DNA from: Hordeum vulgare subsp. vulgare | Lineage: Eukaryota > Streptophyta > Magnoliopsida > Poales > Poaceae | Assembly: GCF_904849725.1 (NCBI RefSeq) | Contig: NC_058519.1 | Location: forward strand, 108,302,881-108,366,880 | Direction: 5' to 3' | Length of the DNA: 64,000 nucleotides | In this document: positions 5,106 through 58,450 of the stretch, piece by piece | How the letters are laid out: every line of letters starts with the position of its first letter | Position numbering within the stretch: position 1 is the first letter of the stretch | Translations under genes and position numbers: made by a program | The notes under the pieces: model-generated | What the model was told of the DNA's origin: nothing | The model's database searches: none | Seen by the model: only the letters and a program-made list of their open reading frames with translations

Positions 5106-7840
5106 TTCTATCACCTTATGCCCAAATAAGGGCGTTAAACAATAGCGCTTGTTGGGAGGCAGCCCAATGAATTTATCTTTGCTTTTTTGCTTTCTGTTTT
5201 GTTGCGTCCACACCATCATAATTCTGTTATGATTGTGTCTTTTGTGTTTCTTTTTGTGTTTGTGCCAAGTAAAACCTTTATGACTAGTTTAGTGATGCTT
5301 GTTTGATCCTGCTGGAAAAAGACAAAAACTTTTCGCTCACGAAATTATTTTTCATTTTTATCCAGAAAGAGCTTTTGAGTTGATCCTTTTTGCTTCTGGT
5401 TGATATGCCAATTGCCCAAACTGTCCTAATTTTCAGAATTTTTGAGATACCAGAAGTATACGAAGTATACAGATTGCTACAGACTGGTCTGTTTTTGACA
5501 GATTCTGTTTTTGTTGTGTTGGTTGCTTGTTTTGATGAAACTATGGATAGTATCGGGGGGTACTAGCCATGGAAAAGTGAGAATACAGTAATCTAACACC
5601 AATATAAATAGAAATCAAGTTTGCTACAGTACCTCAAGAGGTGGTAGTTTGTTTTCTTGTGCTAATGATATCACAAGTTTCTGTTTAAGTTTTGTGTTGT
5701 GAAGTTTTCAAGTTTTGGGTGATGTTCTCATGGACAAAGGGATAAAGAGTGGAAAGAGATCAAGCTTGGGGATTCCCAAGGCACCGCAAGCCAAATTCAA
5801 GGACACGAAAAAGCCTAAGCTTGGGGATGCCCCGGGAAGGCATCCTCTCTTTCGTCCTCAATCCATCGGTAACATTACTTGGAGCTATATTTTTATTCAT
5901 CCCATGATATGTGTTTTGCTTGGAGCGTCTTGTATCATAGGAGTCTTTTCTTTTTGTTGTGTCACAATCATCCTTGCTGCACACCTTTTGAGAGAGACAT
6001 GCACTCATCGTGATTTTGCTAGAATACTCTTTGAGCTTCGCTTATATCTTTTGACTTAGGCAATTTAGCTCACATGTGCTTCACTTAGATCTTTTAGAGC
6101 ATGACGGTGTCATATTTTGGAGAAATAAGAACTCTGGATCTTCACTTATATCTTTTTGAGAGTGATCTCTCTGAGTAAATTGGTAGTTGGCTTGTGCTAT
6201 GAAAGTAGTCCCAAAGGTGATAGGAATCCAAAGAAGATACAATGAAACTTCAATCTTCTTGTGCATTGATTAGAAAGAGAAGTTTGATTCCTCTCAATTA
6301 GTTTTGAGATATGGATTTGGTGATACTAAGAGTTATGTTAGTAGGGTGTTGTGAATCTAGAAATACTTGTGTTGAAGTTAGTGATTCCCGTAACATGCAC
6401 GTATGGTGAACCGCTATGTTAGGAAGTCGGAGCATAATTGATCTATTGATTGTCATACTTTGTGTTGCGGTCGGGATCGCGCAATGGTTAACACCTACCA
6501 ACCCTTCCCCTAGGAGTATACGTTTAGCACTTTGTTTTGATTACTAATAAAAACTTCCGCAATAAGTATGTGAGTTCTACATGACTAATGTGAGTCCATG
6601 GTATAGATGCACTTTCACCTTCCACCAATGCTAGCCTCTTTAGTGACACGCAACTTTCGCCGGTGCACAAACCCACCATATGCCTTCCTCAAAACAGCCA
6701 CCATACCTACCTACTATGGCATCTTCATAGCCATTCCGAGATATATTGCCATGCAACTCCCACCGTTCCGTCTCATGACTTGTGCTGTCACTTTCATATT
6801 GCCATTGCATCGTAAGATAGCTAGCGAGTCATACGCCAAGCTAGATCGTTGCACATCCCGGTACATTGTCGGATGCATTTCCTATAAGACTCATCATTGT
6901 TCTAAGCATTGAGCTTTGAGTAAATTAAAGTTTGATGATCATCATTATTAGAGCATTGTCCCATGTGAGGAAATAAAAAAAAGAGGCCAAAGTTGCCCAC
7001 AAAAAAAATATGGAAAGAGGCCAAAGTGCCCAAAACAAGAAGAGAGAAAAAGAGAGAAGGGACAATGCTACTATCTTTTTCCACACTCGTTCTTCATAAT
7101 AGCACCATATTCTTCATGATTGAGAGTCTCTTGATTTGTCACCACCATATGCTAGTGGGAATCTTTGTTATATAACTTGGCTTGTATATTCCAATGATGG
7201 GCTTCCTCAAAATTGGCCTAGGTCTTCGTGAGCAAGCAAGTTGGATGCACACCCACTAGTTCTTCTTTTGAGATTTCACATACTTATAGCTCTAAGTGCA
7301 TCCATTGCTTGGTAATCCCTACTCTTTCAATTTGATATCTATTAATGAGTATCTCCATAGCCCTTTGATACGCCGAGTCGATGTGACCATCTCCTCCTTT
7401 TTGTCTCACAACCTCCACCACACTCTATTCCACCTATAGTGCTATATCCATGGCTCACGCTCATGTATTGTGTGAAAGTTGAAAAAGGTTTGAGCAAGTA
7501 AGAGTGCGAAAACAATTACTTGGCCAATACCGGGGTTGTGCATGATTTAAAATTAGTTGTGTGGGGGATGATGGAGCATAGCCAGACTATATGATTTTGT
7601 AGGGATAACTTTCTTTGGCCTTGTTATTTCGAAAGTTCATGATTACCTTGCTAGTTTGCGTGAAGTATTATTGTTTTCATGTCAATAGAAAACTATTGTT
7701 TTGAATCTTACGATCTGAACATTCATGTCACATGAAAGAAGTTACAACGAACAAATATGCTAGGTTGCATTCCACATCAAAAATTCAGTCTTTATCACTT
7801 CCCTACTCGAGGACGAGCAGGAGTTAAGCTTGGGGATGCT
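5106..7840 (+). other. Long non-coding 3' region of G1
   Basis: About 2.7 kb follow the gag-protease stop without polymerase or env homology. The phrase AAGCTTGGGGAT occurs in the middle (from ~5763 and ~5817) and again just before the 3' LTR (~7828). The stretch around 6965-7080 (GAGGCCAAAG... repeats, A-rich) is shared with element Y at 16006-16041 and 24271-24330. ORFs here (5715-6059, 6607-6912) have no recognised domain. Confidence 0.7.
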
Positions 7841-15988: not shown

Positions 15989-16041
15989 CCGAAGGCATTC
16001 CATGTGAGGAAAAAAGAGAGGCCAAAGAAGCCCATAAAAAG
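15989..16041 (+). mobile_element. Gypsy remnant Y, left part of 3' region
   Basis: This short stretch (CCATGTGAGG, then GAGGCCAAAG repeats) matches the G1 3' region near 6960-7030. MULE1 interrupts it. The last nine bases, CATAAAAAG (16033-16041), are the probable MULE1 target duplication. Confidence 0.65.
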
Positions 16042-16186
16042 GGGATATTTAAATTAGTGCCCCTCGTTCCTTAGTTGTGCTAACTTTTCCCCACGCTCCA
16101 AACTTTCGCTCACTTTTCCCCTCTTCCTTAGCTGACACTCTCACAAATGCTCATAGCGGCCGTTTGTTGTCTTGACCGTCCATTGA
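16042..16186 (+). repeat. MULE1 left terminal inverted repeat
   Basis: This is the inverse of ~24126-24270. Shared blocks include TTCCTTAGTTGTG, TTTTCCCCACGCT and CTCTCACAAATG. The sequence continues into a pyrimidine-rich subterminal region. Terminal repeats of this family also occur at 56099 (MULE2). Confidence 0.85.
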
Positions 16187-16471
16187 CCGTTTGTTGTCTT
16201 GACCGTGACCGTCAATTGCTGACAAGTGGGACCGAGTCTTTGGCTGACTGTTGCTTGCTGACGGGTGGGACCGCAAGGAGACACGTATTGGGAAGCTTGT
16301 CTGAATCTGAAACATATCTAGACAGGTCGCACTGCACCGCGCCGCCCCGCCTCCTCCACCGGCGTCGTGCCGCGTCCACCGCAGTTGTTTCCTCCACCCT
16401 ATGCCCCTATTCCGTTCGTCGGCGACGTCGCGTCTCCGCCAGATATAGCCCACCTCCCCATCTAGGATTAC
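16187..16471 (+). promoter_or_regulatory. Subterminal region and 5' untranslated region of the transposase gene
   Basis: This GC-rich stretch contains repeated TTGACCGT / TTGTTGTCTTGACCG words and CCGCC-rich sequence around 16330-16440. No TATA box is obvious. The overlapping ORFs at 16147-16488 and on the reverse strand show no domain and cross the terminal repeat. In Mutator elements the transposase promoter usually lies within or next to the terminal repeat; here that is inference. Confidence 0.45.
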
Positions 16472-19400
16472 ATGGCGATGTTGAGTGAGGACGCCCGGAA
16501 TGCAGTCGCCCGTGGAGAGGATTGGGTCGAATCCGCGGCAGATAATGCATGGATTAAACCTGGGTAAGCATTGTTTCCTCTCGACTTGACGTTCTAGGTC
16601 GTATTGTAGGCCGCATTTGAATTCTATTTTCTTGAATCGTTCGAATTTGTGCTCGATTTTACCCGGCTAACTGAAGCCTTTATTTCCTTCAACAAAATAG
16701 AATTGATCCCGCGCTGGCTTTCCAGCTGGCGATTAGAATGGAAACTAGTGTGCTGCGTGGTACTAAAGCGCATTTGATTTCATCATTTTTCTATCCCAAA
16801 GTGGTAGAAACTAGGATATCTTTCAAAGCTTTGCAAGCTGAGCTCAGAAACACATATCCCTGGAGTGATGCCGATGCTGTTGAACTCAATTACTTCAGCA
16901 GTGACGAGCAAATATTTCTCCCACTAACTTGCGACGATCATATGCCGTTGCTTTTTGCTGGGATTGCTGGCTGCCGATTCAGTAAACTCCAAATCGATGT
17001 GCTTCAGCCACGCGCAGAACGGGTGAAGGGGAAGGGAGTTCAGACATCATCTGCCTGTGCTAATAGCCAGCACCCCAGCACTCCTTGTAGGTCGACACCA
17101 AGTAAAGCAAGTGGTTCATGGAGCCACAACATGCCTGCTGCCAATTGTGGTTCCAATTCAGCTGCTGCTTCTCGTGTACCTTCTGCAGTTGGTGTAGAAG
17201 AGGATGCAGAACCTGACGGGGCAGTGCCTACAAATGATGATGAAGACGAGATGATGTTTCCTGAACTGGTCGATGTAGCCAGTCAGCAAGCAGTGGATGA
17301 CGAATATATGGAGGAGCCCATCAGCCAAGCTAGGTTTGATGACACTACCGATGAAGAGAAGGTGGAGAACATGGACAACTTAATCGAGGATGAATACGAT
17401 GGTGATGACATGCCAACAATTGAGTGGAACAGGGAAAAACCTGAGCTTAGTGTAGGTACCATTTTCCAATCAATGGTGGACTGTCGGAATGTAGTGACAA
17501 CATGGTGCATTATATCTGAAAACACCTAGAAGATTAAAAGGAGTGAGCCAGCAAGGTTCACAGTTTTTTGTCCATATCCTAGGTGTAGGTGGAAGTTGCA
17601 TGCATCTCGTATGAGAAAGAGCAAATATATTCAGGTAATCCAAGTTCAGTTAGTAATTTAGTTTCAGATTGTTGAGTAAGGTTTCTTAACTATTTTTACC
17701 CTATTATTTTGTTTCAGATAAAGAAAAACCCACACAAGCACACCTCTCCACCTGGAAGGGGAGGGGGGAAGGCCAAAACCAAGCTAGCAAAAACTAGGTG
17801 GGTGGCAGATGCTATATTGGATTGGCTGAGAGAAGAACCTGGACTTGGTCCAACATCACTCCATGGGAAGCTTTTTGAGAAGTACAAGATATAAATTCCT
17901 TACATGAGAATTTTCAATGCTAGGGAAAAGGCTCTTGACAGAACTAATGGTCAATGGAATGACAGTTTTCAGCTGCTTTACACTTTCAAAGCTGAAGTGG
18001 AGATGGCAAGTCCAGGGAGTGTTGTAGAGATTGACAAGCATATAGTTCAATTCAAAATAAAAGGGAAGTCATTTCAGAAGGAGTGCTTCAGAAGGGCTTT
18101 TGTTTGTTTCAAGGCTTGCTGGCAGGGGTTTCTAGATGGTTGCAGGCCCTATTTGGCTGTAGATGCTACACATTTGACTGGAAGATGGAGAGGACAGCTA
18201 GTAGCAGCTTCTGTAGTTGATGGACACAACTGGCTATTCCCAGTTGCATTTGCTATGGTGGAGGCAGAGTCTGAGGAAAGTTGGGTCTGGTTTCTGCAGC
18301 AGTTGCGCAACATTATAGGCACACCCCCAGGTTTGGCTATACACACAGATGCTTGCAAGGGTTTAGAGAGTGCAGTGGAAATTGTATTCCCTGGAGTGGA
18401 GCATAGGGAATGTATGCGACACCTAGCGCATAATTTCAAAAAGAAGTTCAAAGGTAAATTTTATGATGAGAACTTATGGCCAGCATCATACACATGCAGC
18501 AAAAGGAAACATGAACACCATTTGAGAGTGTTGTATGCTCAAAATCCTCTTGTGAAGGAGTACATGGATGCACATCATAGTAAGGTGTGGTCAAGAAGAA
18601 AATTCAACGAAATCTGCAAAGTAGATTATGTGACCAGTAACCTTGCAGAGTGCTTCAATTCAAAGTTCAAGCCAGTAAAAGGGCTCTTGTTGTGGCAAGC
18701 ATTTGACAAGATGAGGCAAATGATCATGATAAAGATGGCTCTTCGCAAAAGAATTGCAGAAACACAATATGTTGGTCATCAAATGCTCCCATCACTGATT
18801 AAGGCATTGCACTTGAAGGCAAGAGGCCTGAAGATGAAATGTATTCGATCTGGTACATATGAGGCAGAGGTTACCTATACTGACACTAAAAATTGGGTAT
18901 GGAGTTATCGTGTGAACCTAAGTACTAGAGAATGTACTTGTAGGCAATGGCAGATCCGTGGGAAGCCATGCATACATGCCCTACATCCGATGACCGTTAT
19001 CGGGGGTGCAGATGGTGAAGTTGATCAATATTGCTCTGAGTATTTCTCTGTTGCGAAATTTATGGCTGCTTATGCTGACAATGTGCCTGCACTATTGGGG
19101 AAAGATCAATGGAACATAGTAGATCCAGGGTTCAAACTCCATGCTCCTGTCATTACTAGACCACCAGGAAGACCAAGGAACCAGAGGATTAGAGCAGGTG
19201 AGGAGGGTCGTCTACCAAAGAAACGTGCTTGCAAAAAGTCTGGAGTTCTAGGGCATATTGCTAGGCTTTGTACCAATTGAGTGGATGCATCATTTGGAGA
19301 GGAGGAAAGATGGACATCAGCCAATGCTAAGGAGAATGCAACATCAATGGAGATTGAAGATGCAGTGGAGAATGCAGCAGCAATGGAGATTGAAGATGCA

Positions 19401-19721
19401 GTGGAGAATGCAGCAGCAAATGAAGCAGAAGATTTTGAAACCATGGCCTTTGATGGTTTTGAAGATATAAGAGAGGAAGAGGAGGGGGTAATTGTTCCAA
19501 TTGTGCCTTTAAAGATTACTGAACCCATAGATGACCGTCAAATGGTCGTCAAGTGCTCGGCGAGTGGAACTACTCCATCAGCACCTCCACGGGGAAAACA
19601 CCAAGTAAAGCCCAAGATCAAAAGGAACAAGAGTCTGACAGAAAAGAGCATCTCAACTAGGGAAACCAGGAGCAAGACTGTGAAGCCAGCTGCAAACACA
19701 AGGAGCAAGTCAAAAATTTGA
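16472..19721 (+). pseudogene. mudrA-like: MuDR-type MULE transposase, three exons, three nonsense codons
   Basis: Exons 16472-16563, 16701-17634 and 17718-19721 join in frame to 1009 codons before the final stop; both introns have GT...AG ends. The protein starts MAMLSEDARNAV, followed by an acidic low-complexity linker (~140-280) and a MuDR DNA-binding domain (~283-345, with GTIFQSMVDC and the segment FTVFCPYPRCRW). The MULE DDE core follows, with Asp in YLAVDATHLTG (~491), Asp in AIHTDACKGL (~550) and Glu in NLAECFN (~650). A SWIM zinc finger CTCRQWQIRGKPCIHAL (~749-765) and a degraded zinc knuckle near the C-terminus complete it. The product would cut and rejoin the element ends. In-frame stops at 17527-17529 (TAG), 17892-17894 (TAA) and 19278-19280 (TGA) inactivate it. 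There are no frameshifts, so decay is recent or limited. Confidence 0.9.
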
Positions 19722-21230
19722 ATTAAGTTGTTGGAAAATGTTTGTGTTGTCAATTTGAGGGCGAGTCGATCGCTTAAAACTTGGTAGATTTGTATTAAGA
19801 TGTTGGCATCTTAAAACTTGGTAGCTTTGAGCTACTGTAATAATGTTGGCATCAGTTGTAATAATGTTGCTTCTACTTTGGTTCCTTATTTGAGTCAAAA
19901 TTCAAATTTCCATCAAAATTTGAATTTAAATCAATATTTGAATTTGGGCCAAAATTTGGATTCGAGCCAAAGTTGAAGTTGAGCATTGGAGGTTCATTGC
20001 TCTCTGCGGTGTATTTGATCGAGCATTTCAAGTCCAATATTCTTAGGTGAACAGTCCGAATGAGAAATGTGCTAGAAACGAGCTCGAAAGCTAGGGTAAA
20101 CAGCCCTATTTGAAATCAAGTTTTTTTTGACCTTCCCTAAATGAGACATATATATTTTTATTAACACTTGTTCCATATATATAGGGTAAAAACGAAGTCT
20201 CACTATTTATTGATTAATATTCATATTACTACATTTTTTTTAAAATATGCTTTTAATTCAAAACCGTCAAATAACACGTTTTAGATATGAAAATGAAAAC
20301 GTAAGTTGAGATCCTTCTCATTCACTCCAAAATGAAGCTATGGAGATTTTTCTGATTTTTTTTTGATTTTTTTTTTCAAACCCTAAACCCTCTCTCCCTA
20401 AACCCTAAACTCTGAAAATGTTCATAGGTCATAGCTCATTTTTGTGAAGGCTTTTTCATGAAAATGACTTACACCAAGTTTATATTTTTTTTCTCATAAC
20501 CTTGTCACATATGACGGCTATGTGCGCAAGAATTACAACATTTTGATTTTTTATTGAATTTATTAAAAACATTTGAACTTGATTTCGACATGTCACTTCA
20601 AAAAATGACTTTTCAAAAAAACGCCCCTATACCGAGTTTATATTTTTTTATGGTAACTAGGTCTCATAAACAGACGAACTACGTTTGTTTTATATTTTTG
20701 GGATTTTTTCTAATTTAGTTATGGCCATTTGAAATCTGGTCAAACCCTAATAACCCCGTTGACTCGCTCATAACCCTGCAGAAATGCTCCAAACCCTAGC
20801 GTCGAACGTCCGCCGTCGGATCATGCCCTAGGGCCAAACACCACCCGTCAGATGTGGGCAGGCATGCGCGATCCGCGTGATGCATCCTGATTGGCTACTG
20901 CACTGACCTTCTCGGCTTTTTACGATCTGCCCCACTTTACATATGAAATTGTATTTTTCGCACATGACCACCACATGTGAGTGTTAAGAGTTGGTTCAAA
21001 TATTCAAACTGCAAAATACAATGTGGCAAATCGTCAATATAGCTTCCCCTTCTCCTCTTCTCCATGTGACAGACAAAGGCATCGAGCAGATCGAGCAATT
21101 CCTCTGTTTCTTTCCCCATCTTCTCGTTCTTCTTCCTCTCGACCAATTCCTCTGTTTTTTCCTCTCGGGCGATTTGTTGACCTCCTCGTCAGCCCCCCAT
21201 TCCACGTGGCCGGTGTATGGTCCAGTGCCG
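19722..21230. other. MULE1 spacer between transposase and GRF gene
   Basis: About 1.5 kb of mostly AT-rich, non-coding sequence. It includes repeated TTTGAATTT/CAAAATTTG words (19880-19970) and a short telomere-like patch at 20378-20410. The last ~250 bases upstream of the GRF gene are pyrimidine-rich (CTCTTCTCC, TTCTTCCTCTCG), like a plant 5' untranslated region. I see no additional gene. Confidence 0.55.
20378..20410 (+). repeat. Telomere-like CCCTAAA patch
   Basis: Four CCCTAAA-type units occur in two pairs: AAACCCTAAACCC at 20378-20390 and CCCTAAACCCTAAAC at 20396-20410. This is too short for an interstitial telomere. It could be a telo-box-like regulatory motif upstream of the GRF gene, or chance in AT-rich DNA. 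Confidence 0.5.
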
Positions 21231-21726
21231 ATGACTCGATGCACTGACTGCCCACGGATTGCGCCACTGAAGCGGTTGACTTCGAAGGAGGAGAAGAATG
21301 AGAACTTTGGGCGCGAGTTCGTCAAATGCGAGAGCAAGCCGGAGGGGCAGGTTAGATCTGAGTTTTCCTCTCATCCTTTATCTCTGTCAGGTTTGGATTT
21401 AGGTTACATGATTTCGTTTTCAGATCGTGAAGAAATACCACCATTTCGAGTGGATGGATGATTACATCCAGAGGCTTCAAGGGTTGGGCTTGCTGGATTT
21501 GAGGGGTGATGCAATCCGCGAGTTCAATCTGCCCCATGACAGTGCCGCTCCGGCAGCAGCAGCGCGTCTGGAATACCCGACGATGGTAGATGTCGAACTG
21601 AAGACGGAATTGAAGAAGATGAACAAGAACTTCAAGCAGCTGATTGAGTTGAAGAAGCAATCCAATCTGATAGCTTTAGGAATACTTGCTCTAGGAATTT
21701 TTTACTTGATGGCCATCTCTCGTTAG
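21231..21726 (+). CDS. GRF zinc finger / coiled coil / tail-anchor protein of MULE1 (two exons)
   Basis: Exon 1 is 21231-21350 and exon 2 is 21424-21726, separated by a 73 bp GT...AG intron. They join in phase to a 140-residue protein without internal stops. Residues 4-49 look like a GRF zinc finger: CTDC, then FGREFVKC and HHFEWMDD, with His replacing the fourth Cys. Residues ~94-118 (LKTELKKMNKNFKQLIELKK) form a charged coiled coil. Residues ~119-137 (LIALGILALGIFYLMAI) are a single hydrophobic span, leaving only two or three residues after it, so the topology is that of a tail-anchored membrane protein. GRF fingers in other proteins bind single-stranded nucleic acid. A truncated relative lies at 58225-58450 in MULE2. 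The role in the transposon is unknown. The ATG choice is the first one upstream of the Cys motif in frame. Confidence 0.75.
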
Positions 21727-22901
21727 AGATGTTTCTCTACTGTTGTTGCCACTGTTTAGCAATCTTCGTTTGTTTATCTCAAATGCAACTCTGTTTAGTG
21801 CAACTGTCGATCTCTGAATGTATGCAGTTTACTGTTAAGTTTCGACACTTTCAGTTTCGATAGAAGACAACTACCAGTTCAGTGATAGGATTATTTTGTT
21901 AGCTAATAACCTCGAGTGTTGGGTCATACCCTAGCTCGTCAGATGACAGTAAGCAGTACTTGAGCAGCACGAGGGATATACATCAAGTTCATCTCTTCTC
22001 TCTCGCACTTGCCAAACTTTTGTCCTCGAGTTCGTCAGTTCTGCTAGAAAAAAAACCTAGTTTGCGGGCCCAAAGAGAATCAAGCTGCAATAGGCCCACA
22101 AAGGATAAATGAGGTCCAGAAACAAGTGATGTCTCTTCTTTTGTTTAGGAACGATTGCTTTGTTCTTTTTTGTTTTTGATTGCTTTTTTCATTAATTTGA
22201 TTGCCCAATCTCTTCTATCTCATTGAGGAATTTTTTCGGCTTTCCTTTATGGGTCCCTTCATTTATCCTTTTGACTAAAGCCAAACATTTCAAAGTGTAG
22301 TTTTCTACATAGTGTAATTTATATTTCATGATTGGAAAAAGAGGTCCAACCATACTTCAAACATAGTGTAGTTTTCTACATATTAAAGTAGGGATTAAAG
22401 TATATAAAACTACACTTTTGACTAAAGCCAAACATCTCAAAGTATTTGATACTTCAATATTTCTGAAAACCAAAGTATTCTTGGAATACCTAAAAAATAG
22501 AGAGCTCAGCAAACCAAAACCGTGTACAAATGTACAATATGTTCTTATTTTTAGAAGGCATCTATAAACACATCATTTTTAGTTAGTTTGGTTAATTTTT
22601 CCCACGCCAATTAGCCGTGTCTAAACTTGGGACAAACAAAATACAAACATAACAAATCATTAATATAACACACATAACTTAATATAACTTAGATAGGGTT
22701 GCTAGGGCAACATATATAAGTTCTTGGGACATAGACACCAATTTCTTACATGGATAATAATAATTAGTAGCTAGGTCGGGCAACACACACACCAAACTAA
22801 TACTACATACTACTAGATAGGGTAGCTAGGGCAACACCGCCATGTCTTCACCGTCATCTTCACCTTAACCGCCGGCTTCACCGTCTTCTTCGCCGCCGGC
22901 T
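21727..22901. other. MULE1 spacer between GRF gene and ORF-C
   Basis: This is AT-rich and non-coding, between the convergent 3' ends of the GRF gene and ORF-C. A partial local duplication is visible: TTTTGACTAAAGCCAAACAT occurs near 22270 and 22416, and TAGTTTTCTACATA near 22298 and 22370. Polyadenylation signals are not distinct. Confidence 0.5.
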
Positions 22902-23330
22902 TCAGTACTCCTCCTCCTCAAGGCCGTTGTCGCCGAGGTGGTACGGGAGGCTGTGCATGCGGTCGCGAGTGGGGAAGATGCTCTCGAAGTCGGTGAAGAT
23001 GTTATAGGTGGTGAATGCGATGAACTCGCACCCACACCAATACACCTTGCCGAGCAGGTGGTAGGCATCGAACCTGTTGGTGAAGTGGACGACGAGCCTT
23101 ACCGGTGGAGCGTTGGCGTGGGGACGCTACTCCACGAGGTTGAACATGGGCAGCGAGCCCGCCGGGAGGTGGTGGAAGCCCGCACGGAGGAACCCCCGTG
23201 CAAGCTCAGTGCTACCCCTCCAGCGTGAGAACGCCCACACGCGGAGCGATTCCTCGACGACGACGTTGGTGGGGTACCGCCGTTCCGGCACGGTGGGAGG
23301 CCCTTGGAACGTTGGGCCGTAGAACCGCAT
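22902..23330 (-). pseudogene. ORF-C of MULE1: unrecognised ~142-residue gene, one nonsense codon
   Basis: ATG at 23330 reads MRFYGPTFQGPPTVPERRYP and runs 142 codons to TGA at 22902-22904, with one in-frame TAG at 23127-23129. The first half is Arg/Trp-rich (RVWAFSRWRG, ARGFLRAGFHHL). The second half carries FTNRFDAYHLLGKVYWCG followed by CEFIAFTTYNIF, and the C-terminus is acidic (EEEEY). No catalytic motif, signal peptide or membrane span is evident. The MULE2 homologue (56563-57000) conserves both halves, including NRFD, LL, WCG and EFIAFTTYNIF, so this is a genuine gene family rather than a chance ORF. A TATA box lies ~108 bases upstream. I do not recognise the function. Confidence 0.75.
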
Positions 23331-23429
23331 CTTGAACGCTTCGCTGAGTGGAACCGCTCTGGCTTTTGGGGGAAGAAGAGAAGTGGGAGGCGCAGATGGA
23401 TCTGTATAAGAAGAGGCAATGAAGGGCAG

Positions 23430-23438
23430 TTTAAATAG
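23430..23438 (-). promoter_or_regulatory. TATA box of ORF-C (MULE1)
   Basis: CTATTTAAA on the minus strand begins 108 bases before the ORF-C ATG. MULE2 has the identical CTATTTAAA 110 bases before its ORF-C ATG. Confidence 0.7.
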
Positions 23439-23479
23439 CCAGGGGAGACGAAGTGGGTACACGCGCAAACGGCGTAGAT

Positions 23480-24125
23480 CATGACTCAGTGCTGCTGTGT
23501 GAACCGATGCGATCATCAATGTGTGAACGTGAATCGAAGCGAGCGTGCTCTGCGTTGGCGGCTCTGCGTGCTCTACGTTGGCGGCTGCCTCCCCCTGCTG
23601 CGTTGGCGGCTCCCTGCCTCCCCCTTCTGCGTGCTCTGCGTTGGCGGCTACCCCTTCTGCATGCCCCTTCTGCAACCGGCACAACTGAATCGAGCGGCAG
23701 CCGTGCGGCGTAAACTGATGCCTCGACATATGGACGCGAGCGTGCGTGCAGCCTGCCCTTTCTGCCACCGGCACGTATGCCTGCGACGCGTGAAACGACG
23801 TTGCGGAGCGACTGAATCCACTGGCAACCGTGCGGCATGGATCGATGCGTGCATGTCAGCGTGCATGCATGCATTTAGGTCTAGGTCACTAGATGCGTGC
23901 GTGGCGGTGTTCGCATGCATAGCAGGCTACATCGATGCCAAAGACGGGCATGCATAGCAGGCTACATCGATGCCAAAGACGGGCATGCATAGCAGGCTGC
24001 ATCCATCGATAGTAGTTTTTTTAATTTATTACCAACAAAGTAACGGGCCCGTCCTATGAACACAAACACGGCCCAACCAGCGAAGCCACAGCCACAGTCA
24101 ACAGAGTTCAACATGGCCCCACAAG
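23480..24125. other. GC-rich subterminal region of MULE1
   Basis: Non-coding; contains imperfect repeats of GCGTTGGCGGCT (23553-23650), ATGCATGC-rich sequence (23860-23930) and a 35 bp tandem repeat. Overlapping long ORFs on both strands (23127-23774, 23481-23957 and others) reflect GC content and have no domains. Subterminal repeats in Mutator elements can bind transposase; that is inference here. Confidence 0.5.
23913..24000 (+). repeat. 35 bp tandem repeat in MULE1 subterminal region
   Basis: Two perfect 35 bp units (23913-23947, 23948-23982), each starting GCATGCATAGCAGGCT, are followed by a partial third. Each unit has the palindromes GCATGC and ATCGAT. Confidence 0.85.
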
Positions 24126-24270
24126 TCAGTTAACGGCCAAGACGGCAAACGCCTGTTATCAACATTTGTGAGAGTTTCAGCTAAGGGAGAGGGGGAAAGT
24201 GAGCAAAAGTTCGAAGCGTGGGGAAAACTGAACACAACTAAGGAATTGGGGGCACAGATGGAATAAGCCC
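24126..24270 (-). repeat. MULE1 right terminal inverted repeat
   Basis: This is the inverse of 16042-16186. The inverse strand reads GGGCTTATTCCATCTGTGCC at the terminus. It is followed by TAGAAAAAG, the likely target duplication. Confidence 0.85.
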
Positions 24271-25101
24271 TAGAAAAAGAGGCCAAAGAGCCCACAAAAA
24301 AAGAGAGAGAAAAAGAGAGAAGGGACAATGCTACCACTTTTTCCACACTTGTGCATATTAAAGCACCATGATCTTCATGATTGAGAGTCTCTCGTTTTGT
24401 CACCACCATATAGCTAGTGGGAAATTTTCATTATATAACTTGGCTTGTATATTCCAATGATAGGCTTCCTCAAAACTGCCTTAGGTCTTCTTGAGCAAGC
24501 AAGTTGGATGCATACCCACTAGTTTTCTTTAAGAGCTTTCGCATACTCGTAGCTCTAGTGCATCATTTGTATGGCAATCCCTACTCATTCACATTGATAT
24601 CTATTGATGAGCATCTCCACAGCTCATTGATATGCCTAGTTAATGTGACTACCTTATCCTTTTTTGTCTTGCAACCTCCACTACATTGCACACCATCTAT
24701 AGTGCTATAACCATGGCTCACGCTCATGTATTGCATGAGAGTTGAAAATGTTTGAGAAAGTAAAGGTGTCAAACAATTACTTGGCCAATACTGGGGTTGT
24801 GCATGATTTAAATTCGTTGTGCAATGATGATAGAGCATAGCCAGACTATATGCTTTTGTAGGGATAACTTTCTTTTGGCCTTGTTATTTTGAAACTTCAT
24901 GATTACTTTGCTAGTTTGCTTGAATTATTATTGTTTCCACGTCAATCGCAAACTATTGTTTTGAATCTAATGGATCTGAACATTCACGTCACATAAGAGG
25001 AATTACAAAGGACACCTATGCTAGGTAGCATGAAAGCATCAAAAATTCATTCTTATCACTTCCCTACTCGAGGACGAGCAGGAGTTAAGCTTGGGGATGC
25101 T
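24271..25101 (+). mobile_element. Gypsy remnant Y, 3' region up to polypurine tract
   Basis: This continues the Y 3' region after MULE1 and parallels G1 6970-7840 almost throughout: GGGACAATGCTAC, CACCACCATAT and GAGGACGAGCAGGAGTTAAG are shared. It ends with AAGCTTGGGGATGC before the Y LTR. ORFs at 24504-24838 are not genes. Confidence 0.8.
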
Positions 25102-56098: not shown

Positions 56099-56245
56099 GG
56101 GTTTTCTATATTTGTGCCCCTGGTTCCTCAGTCTTTCTCACTGAACCCCCTGCTCTAAAATTTAGCTATGTTTCCCCACTTGCTAGTCTGAAACCCTCAC
56201 AAAAGCCCAAACTGGATGTTTGCCGTCAAGTCAAGCTTTGACCGT
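56099..56245 (+). repeat. MULE2 terminal inverted repeat
   Basis: It aligns with the MULE1 terminal repeats by eye: GTGCCCC, GTTCCTCAGT, TTTCCCCAC, CTCACAAA, GTTTGCCGTC, GACCGTTAAC. Its partner end is not in the window. Confidence 0.75.
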
Positions 56246-56562: not shown

Positions 56563-57000
56563 ATGCAGTACAATGGCCCCACCTTTCGCTTCCCACCCAC
56601 TATGCCAGAGAGGAGGTACCCCACCGTCGTCATCATGGATACCACGTTGCGTGTGTGGGCGATCTCAAGGTGGAGGGCTCCTAGGTAGTTGGCCCAGGTG
56701 TTCCTCCGTGCAGGATTTGGCCACCTCTCGGCAAGCTAGCAGGTCATGTTCCGCCTGGACGAGATGCGTCTGAATGCATCCTCTCCGACGACCGGGCTGC
56801 TCGCACACTTCACCAACCGCTTCGACACATTCTATCTTCTCGAGCAGGTGTTTTGGTGTGGTTTTGAGTTCATCGCTTTCACAACCTACAACATCTTCGC
56901 CGACGTAGACAACATCTTCCCCACCCCGAACGCTATGCACAACCTCCCCTACTACATCGGCGGTAACGACATGGAGGAGTACTATCGAAGATGGCGATGA
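56563..57000 (+). pseudogene. ORF-C of MULE2: ~145-residue homologue, two nonsense codons
   Basis: ATG at 56563 reads MQYNGPTFRFPPTMPERRYP and reaches TGA at 56998-57000, in one frame, with TAG at 56686-56688 and 56737-56739. It shares RVWA.SRWR, FLRAGF.HL, HFTNRFD, WCG.EFIAFTTYNIF and the spacing of the acidic C-terminus with MULE1 ORF-C (22902-23330). The shared protein against more diverged DNA suggests past selection on the protein. Function unknown. The strand is inward from the terminal repeat, as in MULE1. Confidence 0.75.
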
Positions 57001-58224: not shown

Positions 58225-58450
58225 TTAACGAGAGATGACCAACAAGTAAGCAAGTTCTAGAGCAACTATAGAAAAATAAAATCCTAAAGATATCAGATTG
58301 GCTTGCTTCTTCAATTCATTCATTTGTTTCAAATTCTTGTTCATCATCTTTAATTCCCCATTCAAATCCACATCCACCACTCTCGCAACAACACTATGAG
58401 AGAGCAAATTCTCCATGGCTGACGGCAGATTGAGTTCCCGGGTTGCGACC
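58225..58450 (-). pseudogene. GRF/tail-anchor gene of MULE2, 5'-truncated
   Basis: An open 74-codon stretch (minus strand) reads VATRELNLPSA and on to the stop TAA at 58225-58227. It aligns with residues ~70-140 of the MULE1 GRF protein: coiled-coil LKMMNKNLKQMNELKKQ and hydrophobic tail ISLGFYFSIVALELAYLLVI, ending ISR in both. The zinc-finger half is missing because G3 begins at 58451. The surviving coiled coil and anchor have no stops. Confidence 0.82.

Follow-up and report, generated by a model that had tools for sequence, protein, structure and literature searches.

Does MULE1, a barley transposable element in which a transposase gene is accompanied by two further genes, represent a transposon architecture of its own, and what might its accessory genes do? 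The element occupies positions 16042..24270 (forward strand, 8,229 bp) of a 64,000-nucleotide stretch of Hordeum vulgare subsp. vulgare (assembly GCF_904849725.1, contig NC_058519.1, positions 108,302,881 to 108,366,880), which was analysed as a whole and is referred to here as the window. On the basis of its terminal repeats, ends, flanking 9-mers, gene order and alignment with 20 further loci, MULE1 is read as a decayed Mutator-like DNA transposon and is most likely a copy of the published element Abermu Type I, a high confidence that applies mainly to the identity of the element.

The borders of MULE1 were determined from its ends and its insertion site. The 5' and 3' terminal inverted repeats (16042..16187 and 24125..24270, both given on the forward strand) are 146 nt long and 79% complementary, and form the sole inverted pair reaching 25 nt in the 15.5-24.8 kb region searched; blastn pairs them over 131 nt at 82% (E 5e-32). 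The termini are GGG...CCC. They are flanked by the 9-mers CATAAAAAG (16033..16041) and TAGAAAAAG (24271..24279), which match at 7 of 9 positions and represent a decayed 9-bp target duplication. Joined to each other, the two flanks aligned at 83%, over 258 columns spanning the insertion point, with a related retroelement copy at 6961-7215. This copy serves as a paralogous empty site, with a length difference of 11 nt at the insertion point, and since it aligns across that point without the element, the borders are sound. A Mutator-like element with clear terminal repeats, as originally proposed, is thus present.

The transposase, the GRF-like gene and the third frame, ORF-C, which the original prediction had placed between the repeats, were all found there. 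The transposase gene consists of a predicted exon 1 (16472..16563, +) with an ATG and GT-AG borders, a predicted exon 2 (16701..17634, +) with an in-frame TAG at 17527-17529, and exon 3 (17718..19280, +), which has an in-frame TAA at 17892-17894 and ends in a TGA at 19278-19280. Predicted splicing of the three exons gives 862 codons with two in-frame stops. The last exon holds the MULE, Transposase_mut and SWIM domains, all above the Pfam cut-offs (PF10551, 77.4 bits with a cut-off of 27.6; PF04434, 31.5 bits with a cut-off of 19.6). The GRF-like gene has two predicted exons (21165..21350 and 21424..21726, both +) separated by a GT-AG intron. The second exon encodes the last zinc-ligand position and, before its stop, a coil helix and a C-terminal hydrophobic helix, both predicted. 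ORF-C (22902..23330, -) comprises 142 codons with an in-frame TAG at 23129-23127.

The start-codon position of the GRF-like gene (21174) reads TTG in MULE1 and ATG in 19 of 20 other barley copies, the remaining one having a gap; the last zinc ligand is Tyr in MULE1 and Cys in all 20. With its transposase interrupted by two stops, ORF-C by one, and its GRF-like gene lacking both the usual start codon and the last ligand cysteine, MULE1 is broken in all three genes, and an intact protein from any of them is unlikely to be made by this copy. Past the transposase stop, the frame continues open through 19281-19721 (146 codons, first acidic and then basic) and may represent either a C-terminal extension that has been lost or untranslated sequence at the 3' side.

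The gene set has a published counterpart. Abermu, a barley element described in 2022, is 8,176 bp long, with repeats of 138-145 bp, GGG...CCC ends and A/T-rich 9-bp duplications, and is present in about 10,000 copies in barley and more than 30,000 in wheat (PMC9168764). According to the available text of that paper, ORF1 encodes the transposase, ORF2 shares its direction and ORFR runs against it; Type I, with all three open reading frames (ORFs), is limited to Triticeae and Poeae, while Type II lacks ORF2 and Type III has the transposase alone, many such relatives occurring in grasses. MULE1 shares with Abermu Type I (Hvu_Abermu, Tae_Abermu) the size, repeats, ends, A/T-rich duplications and high copy number in barley, and likewise has, between the transposase and the 3' repeat, an ORF2 oriented like the transposase and an ORFR of reverse orientation. 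In a comparison with the published description, every feature tested (domains, ORF directions, size, repeats, ends and duplication) fits MULE1. The GRF-like gene and ORF-C are accordingly called ORF2 and ORFR below.

MULE1 differs from the published element in being broken in all three genes, and ORF2 is read here as GRF-like with a predicted anchor and ORFR as a predicted RRM-like protein, whereas the available text of the paper gives no domain for either. It calls the two ORFs unclear and describes ORFR as without similarity to MURB; the words 'GRF' and 'transmembrane' do not occur in its main text (PMC9168764). Other literature found under the name Abermu dealt, by title, with unrelated subjects. 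Since layout, size (about 8.2 kb), ends and duplication match an element published in 2022 (PMC9168764), the three-gene layout was rejected as a new architecture, and the novelty claimed for it falls away. The GRF and RRM-like identities of ORF2 and ORFR would be a modest addition to what has been published.

The family was surveyed in the genome from which the window comes (4.2 Gb, 180 contigs, seven of chromosome length). A search with exon 2 of the GRF-like gene yielded 975 candidates at first look; 150 matches were scored, and an internal stop is listed for 19 of these. Alternate matches between ranks 2 and 40 of the 150 were taken as the sample (60 picked, 20 fetched), so all co-occurrence counts are conditional on the presence of the GRF-like gene, and because the loci come from the upper ranks, close copies are over-represented. 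Some transposase exon-3 sequence is present in all 20 loci, at least half of ORFR in 18 and both terminal repeats in 15; in 14 of the 20, all seven parts compared are represented by half or more of their length and follow one another as they do in MULE1. Thirteen of these 14 complete loci span 8,127-8,368 bp and one spans 6,472 bp. Among the 15 loci with both ends, the 9-bp duplication matches at 9/9 positions in 11, 8/9 in three and 6/9 in one, end shifts of up to 3 bases being permitted and used by the 6/9 case alone; 210 cross-pairs of left and right flanks gave 9/9 in none and 8/9 in one. Mean identity between copies is 96.8%. Together with the Pfam domains and gene positions, this recurrence upholds the original view of a Mutator-like element with two accessory genes and, within GRF-bearing loci, of the gene set as a property of the family.

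Reading frames were compared across 21 copies, that is, MULE1 and the 20 loci. Counted on MULE1 coordinates with insertions ignored, stop-free aligned codons with less than 5% gaps were found in 17/21 copies for the GRF-like gene, 16/21 for ORFR and 4/21 for the longer transposase. A stricter count in the 20 loci (exact ends, no length change, no internal stop) retained 13 for GRF exon 1, 18 for GRF exon 2 and 10 for ORFR; the exact-ends filter kept 0/20 for the transposase exons and is uninformative for that gene. The last 27 GRF matches listed cover residues 18-21 onward only, 23 of them having an open frame of 87 aa, and possibly represent a variant exon border or a sub-family.

A second, divergent lineage is represented in the window by MULE2 (about 58447-56099, -), the 3' fragment of a related element. 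It comprises the 3' part of the GRF-like gene (58443-58225), ORFR (56563-56985, +) with two stops, and a 3' terminal repeat whose end lies near 56099. By blastn, MULE1 and MULE2 match in ORFR (71% over 421 nt) and in the end of the GRF-like gene, between 58.4 and 56.6 kb. The MULE2 3' repeat scores 129.5 against the 3' repeat of MULE1 and 144.5 against its 5' repeat, while 200 shuffles aligned with the MULE1 3' repeat scored at most 74.5. MULE2 is broken off near 58447, and the following sequence to about 60130, as read from its letters, resembles the 3' long terminal repeat of a retroelement; the lost 5' half would lie past the window end. A search with the MULE1 transposase found no second relative in the rest of the window. 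MULE2 was therefore rejected as a second complete element, and the recurrence of the accessory pair that had been claimed for it extends to ORFR and only the 3' part of the GRF-like gene.

Comparison of the accessory genes between MULE1 and MULE2 gave ratios of nonsynonymous to synonymous divergence (dN/dS) of 0.34 for ORFR (138 codons, bootstrap 0.21-0.54) and 0.56 for the GRF-like gene (68 codons, bootstrap 0.28-1.14). Among the 21 recent copies, the corresponding polymorphism ratio (pN/pS), with shifted frames as controls, was 0.43 (0.28-0.65) for the GRF-like gene against 0.80 and 0.74, a signal partly favoured by the choice of loci through this gene, 0.48 for its exon 1 alone against 0.85 and 0.55, and 0.61 (0.40-0.89) for ORFR against 0.72 and 1.00. 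Values below the shifted-frame controls indicate an in-frame signal in both genes, the intervals overlapping. No such signal was obtained for the transposase among these copies (0.81, 0.64-1.06, against 0.57 and 0.63). The substitution patterns show both accessory genes to be conserved at the protein level.

These data bear on the main null explanation, that an old Abermu picked up ORF2 and ORFR as genes of its host and that both ride along as passengers without a part in transposition. In its favour, ORF2 or the pair of accessory genes is missing from Abermu elements of other grasses, and polymorphism occurs in rice elements devoid of ORFR, according to the available text of PMC9168764; this suggests that ORFR, at least, is dispensable in some lineages. 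The listed matches with readable species names place the relatives of ORF2 and ORFR in Triticum, Hordeum, Aegilops or Alopecurus; those of the transposase extend also to Lolium, Zea, Zizania, Avena, Festuca and Ulmus. However, both genes keep fixed positions in the 14 complete loci, recur in the divergent MULE2 lineage and have in-frame pN/pS below the shifted-frame controls, and no host source gene turned up, no search having been aimed at one. Passenger status is considered unlikely.

The protein encoded by ORF2 has 153 database relatives, and a GRF zinc ribbon is plausible from a weak but family-wide match. As in known GRF zinc ribbons, the Zf-GRF of APE2 among them, a CxxC...C...C pattern is followed by an FEW motif, and the four ligand columns show C in 43-48 of the 48 relatives, depending on the column; the last position is Tyr in 2 of the 48, as it is in MULE1. 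Unlike those proteins, ORF2 is short, carries a predicted coil and a C-terminal hydrophobic helix, and scores below the Pfam cut-offs: with the GRF profile (cut-off 27), exon 1 of MULE1 alone reached 19.1 bits, the spliced protein 17.7 and the relative P0001 25.1. PF23549 or PF06839 is assigned to some relatives in the protein database. A PDB sequence search with the family gave just two chance-level matches, and Foldseek with a low-confidence model placed no GRF chain among the best 50 matches listed. A single hydrophobic helix at the extreme C-terminus, judged by hydropathy only, occurs in 41 of 49 sequences and makes a membrane anchor plausible. Of the zinc finger and tail anchor originally proposed, the cysteine pattern holds family-wide; the profile scores stay below cut-off and the anchor is predicted by hydropathy. 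The literature search found no work linking the GRF zinc finger to Mutator-like elements or, among the papers listed, to MULE transposases. By title, nothing retrieved for GRF zinc finger and transmembrane in plants was on this subject, and searching GRF-type with transposon and wheat gave Arabidopsis DNA damage or demethylation only.

For ORFR, the first matter to settle is whether it is a gene at all. A chance open frame would accord with the stops in both window copies (one in MULE1, two in MULE2), with a Pfam search of the family that gave nothing beyond two single chance-level matches and with a PDB sequence search that found no relative. It is contradicted by conservation: 171 database relatives, many of about 141 residues, 10 invariant columns in an alignment of 53 sequences, the dN/dS between MULE1 and MULE2, and frames that stay open in most barley copies by the gap-tolerant count and at full length in half of the loci by the stricter one. 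The probability of a chance frame is accordingly put close to nil. Read as a gene, ORFR is predicted to encode a protein that folds like an RNA-recognition motif (RRM), of the type beta-alpha-beta-beta-alpha-beta; a search of a viral structure library with it gave no match at E <= 0.001.

In the barley annotation, the ORFR relatives P0121, P0122, P0163, P0205 and others are named 'Auxin-induced protein 5NG4' and one is named '40S ribosomal protein S5-1'; these names are apparent mis-annotations of a transposon gene. Some cereal entries called 'GRF-type domain-containing protein' or 'Auxin-induced protein 5NG4' are probably transposon genes, a warning for annotation.

Alignments A1, A2 and A3 comprise 55, 53 and 48 hand-picked rows from 120 listed matches, many short or fused rows being left out. 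Trees were calculated from length-filtered matches (76 of 120 listed for the GRF-like gene, 104 of 120 for ORFR). MULE2 stands on a long branch in the GRF tree, whose bootstrap had not yet converged; the ORFR tree is a quick tree without bootstrap.

The two proteins can be compared with better-known systems. Maize MuDR (mudrA, mudrB) resembles MULE1 in that its Mutator transposase is accompanied by an oppositely oriented accessory gene, and differs in having one such gene where Abermu Type I has two. Reactivated elements without mudrB excise and do not insert, so that mudrB is needed for insertion, as stated in the available text of PMC8224964. The Zf-GRF of APE2 binds single-stranded DNA, according to the text seen of PMC9900424. 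A literature search pairing mudrB with RNA-binding found nothing.

In the mechanism proposed, MULE1 would in the past have transposed in cut-and-paste fashion through the transposase it encodes, with two small accessory proteins probably assisting in trans. The transposase would cut at the terminal repeats and join the element into A/T-rich sites with a 9-bp duplication. The ORF2 zinc-ribbon protein would bind single-stranded nucleic acid, pair through its coil and be held by its C-terminal helix on the endoplasmic reticulum or nuclear envelope, and the RRM-like ORFR protein would bind element RNA or single strands. Because of the analogy with mudrB, in role and not in sequence, both would be expected to aid insertion or expression and to be dispensable for excision. 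The roles given to these predicted nucleic-acid binders are much less certain than the identity of the element.

VANDAL elements are Mutator-like as well, and they suggest the main functional rival, in which the accessory proteins would act as anti-silencing factors like VANC, binding element DNA and removing silencing marks. Arabidopsis VANDAL21 resembles MULE1 in having two genes, VANB and VANC, beside the transposase VANA, and the fast evolution of ORFR next to a conserved transposase (PMC9168764) resembles the VANC pattern, in the available texts (PMC5735166). Escape from silencing would, moreover, be required for a high copy number. However, VANC has the domains DUF1985 and DUF287, according to the text seen of PMC5735166, and neither is among the Pfam matches of the ORF2 and ORFR families. 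An anti-silencing role is judged improbable.

Within the accessory-protein mechanism preferred here, a more specific version is advanced with considerable doubt: Abermu Type I might carry a kit of two proteins for handling nucleic acids, in which a tail-anchored GRF zinc-ribbon protein fastens either the DNA of the transposon or the transcripts of its transposase to the nuclear envelope or endoplasmic reticulum, together with an RRM-like partner. We know of no other cut-and-paste transposon that encodes its own membrane tether. If true, the kit would help to explain the thousands of Abermu copies in barley and wheat; how a cut-and-paste element became so abundant is called unclear in the available text of PMC9168764. 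The likely biochemical identities make ORF2 and ORFR, two unknown frames, testable proteins.

Two further sets of MULE-domain matches were recorded in the genome. Eight loci from the first genome search were rejected as other families, with 24-27% identity to the MULE1 transposase over 108-131 residues. On contig C1, between 12140582 and 12585069, sixteen MULE-domain matches of equal score, each in a 775-aa open frame and spaced at about 29.3 kb, each have another MULE match about 4.8 kb further along, an arrangement suggestive of a 29-kb unit repeated in tandem.

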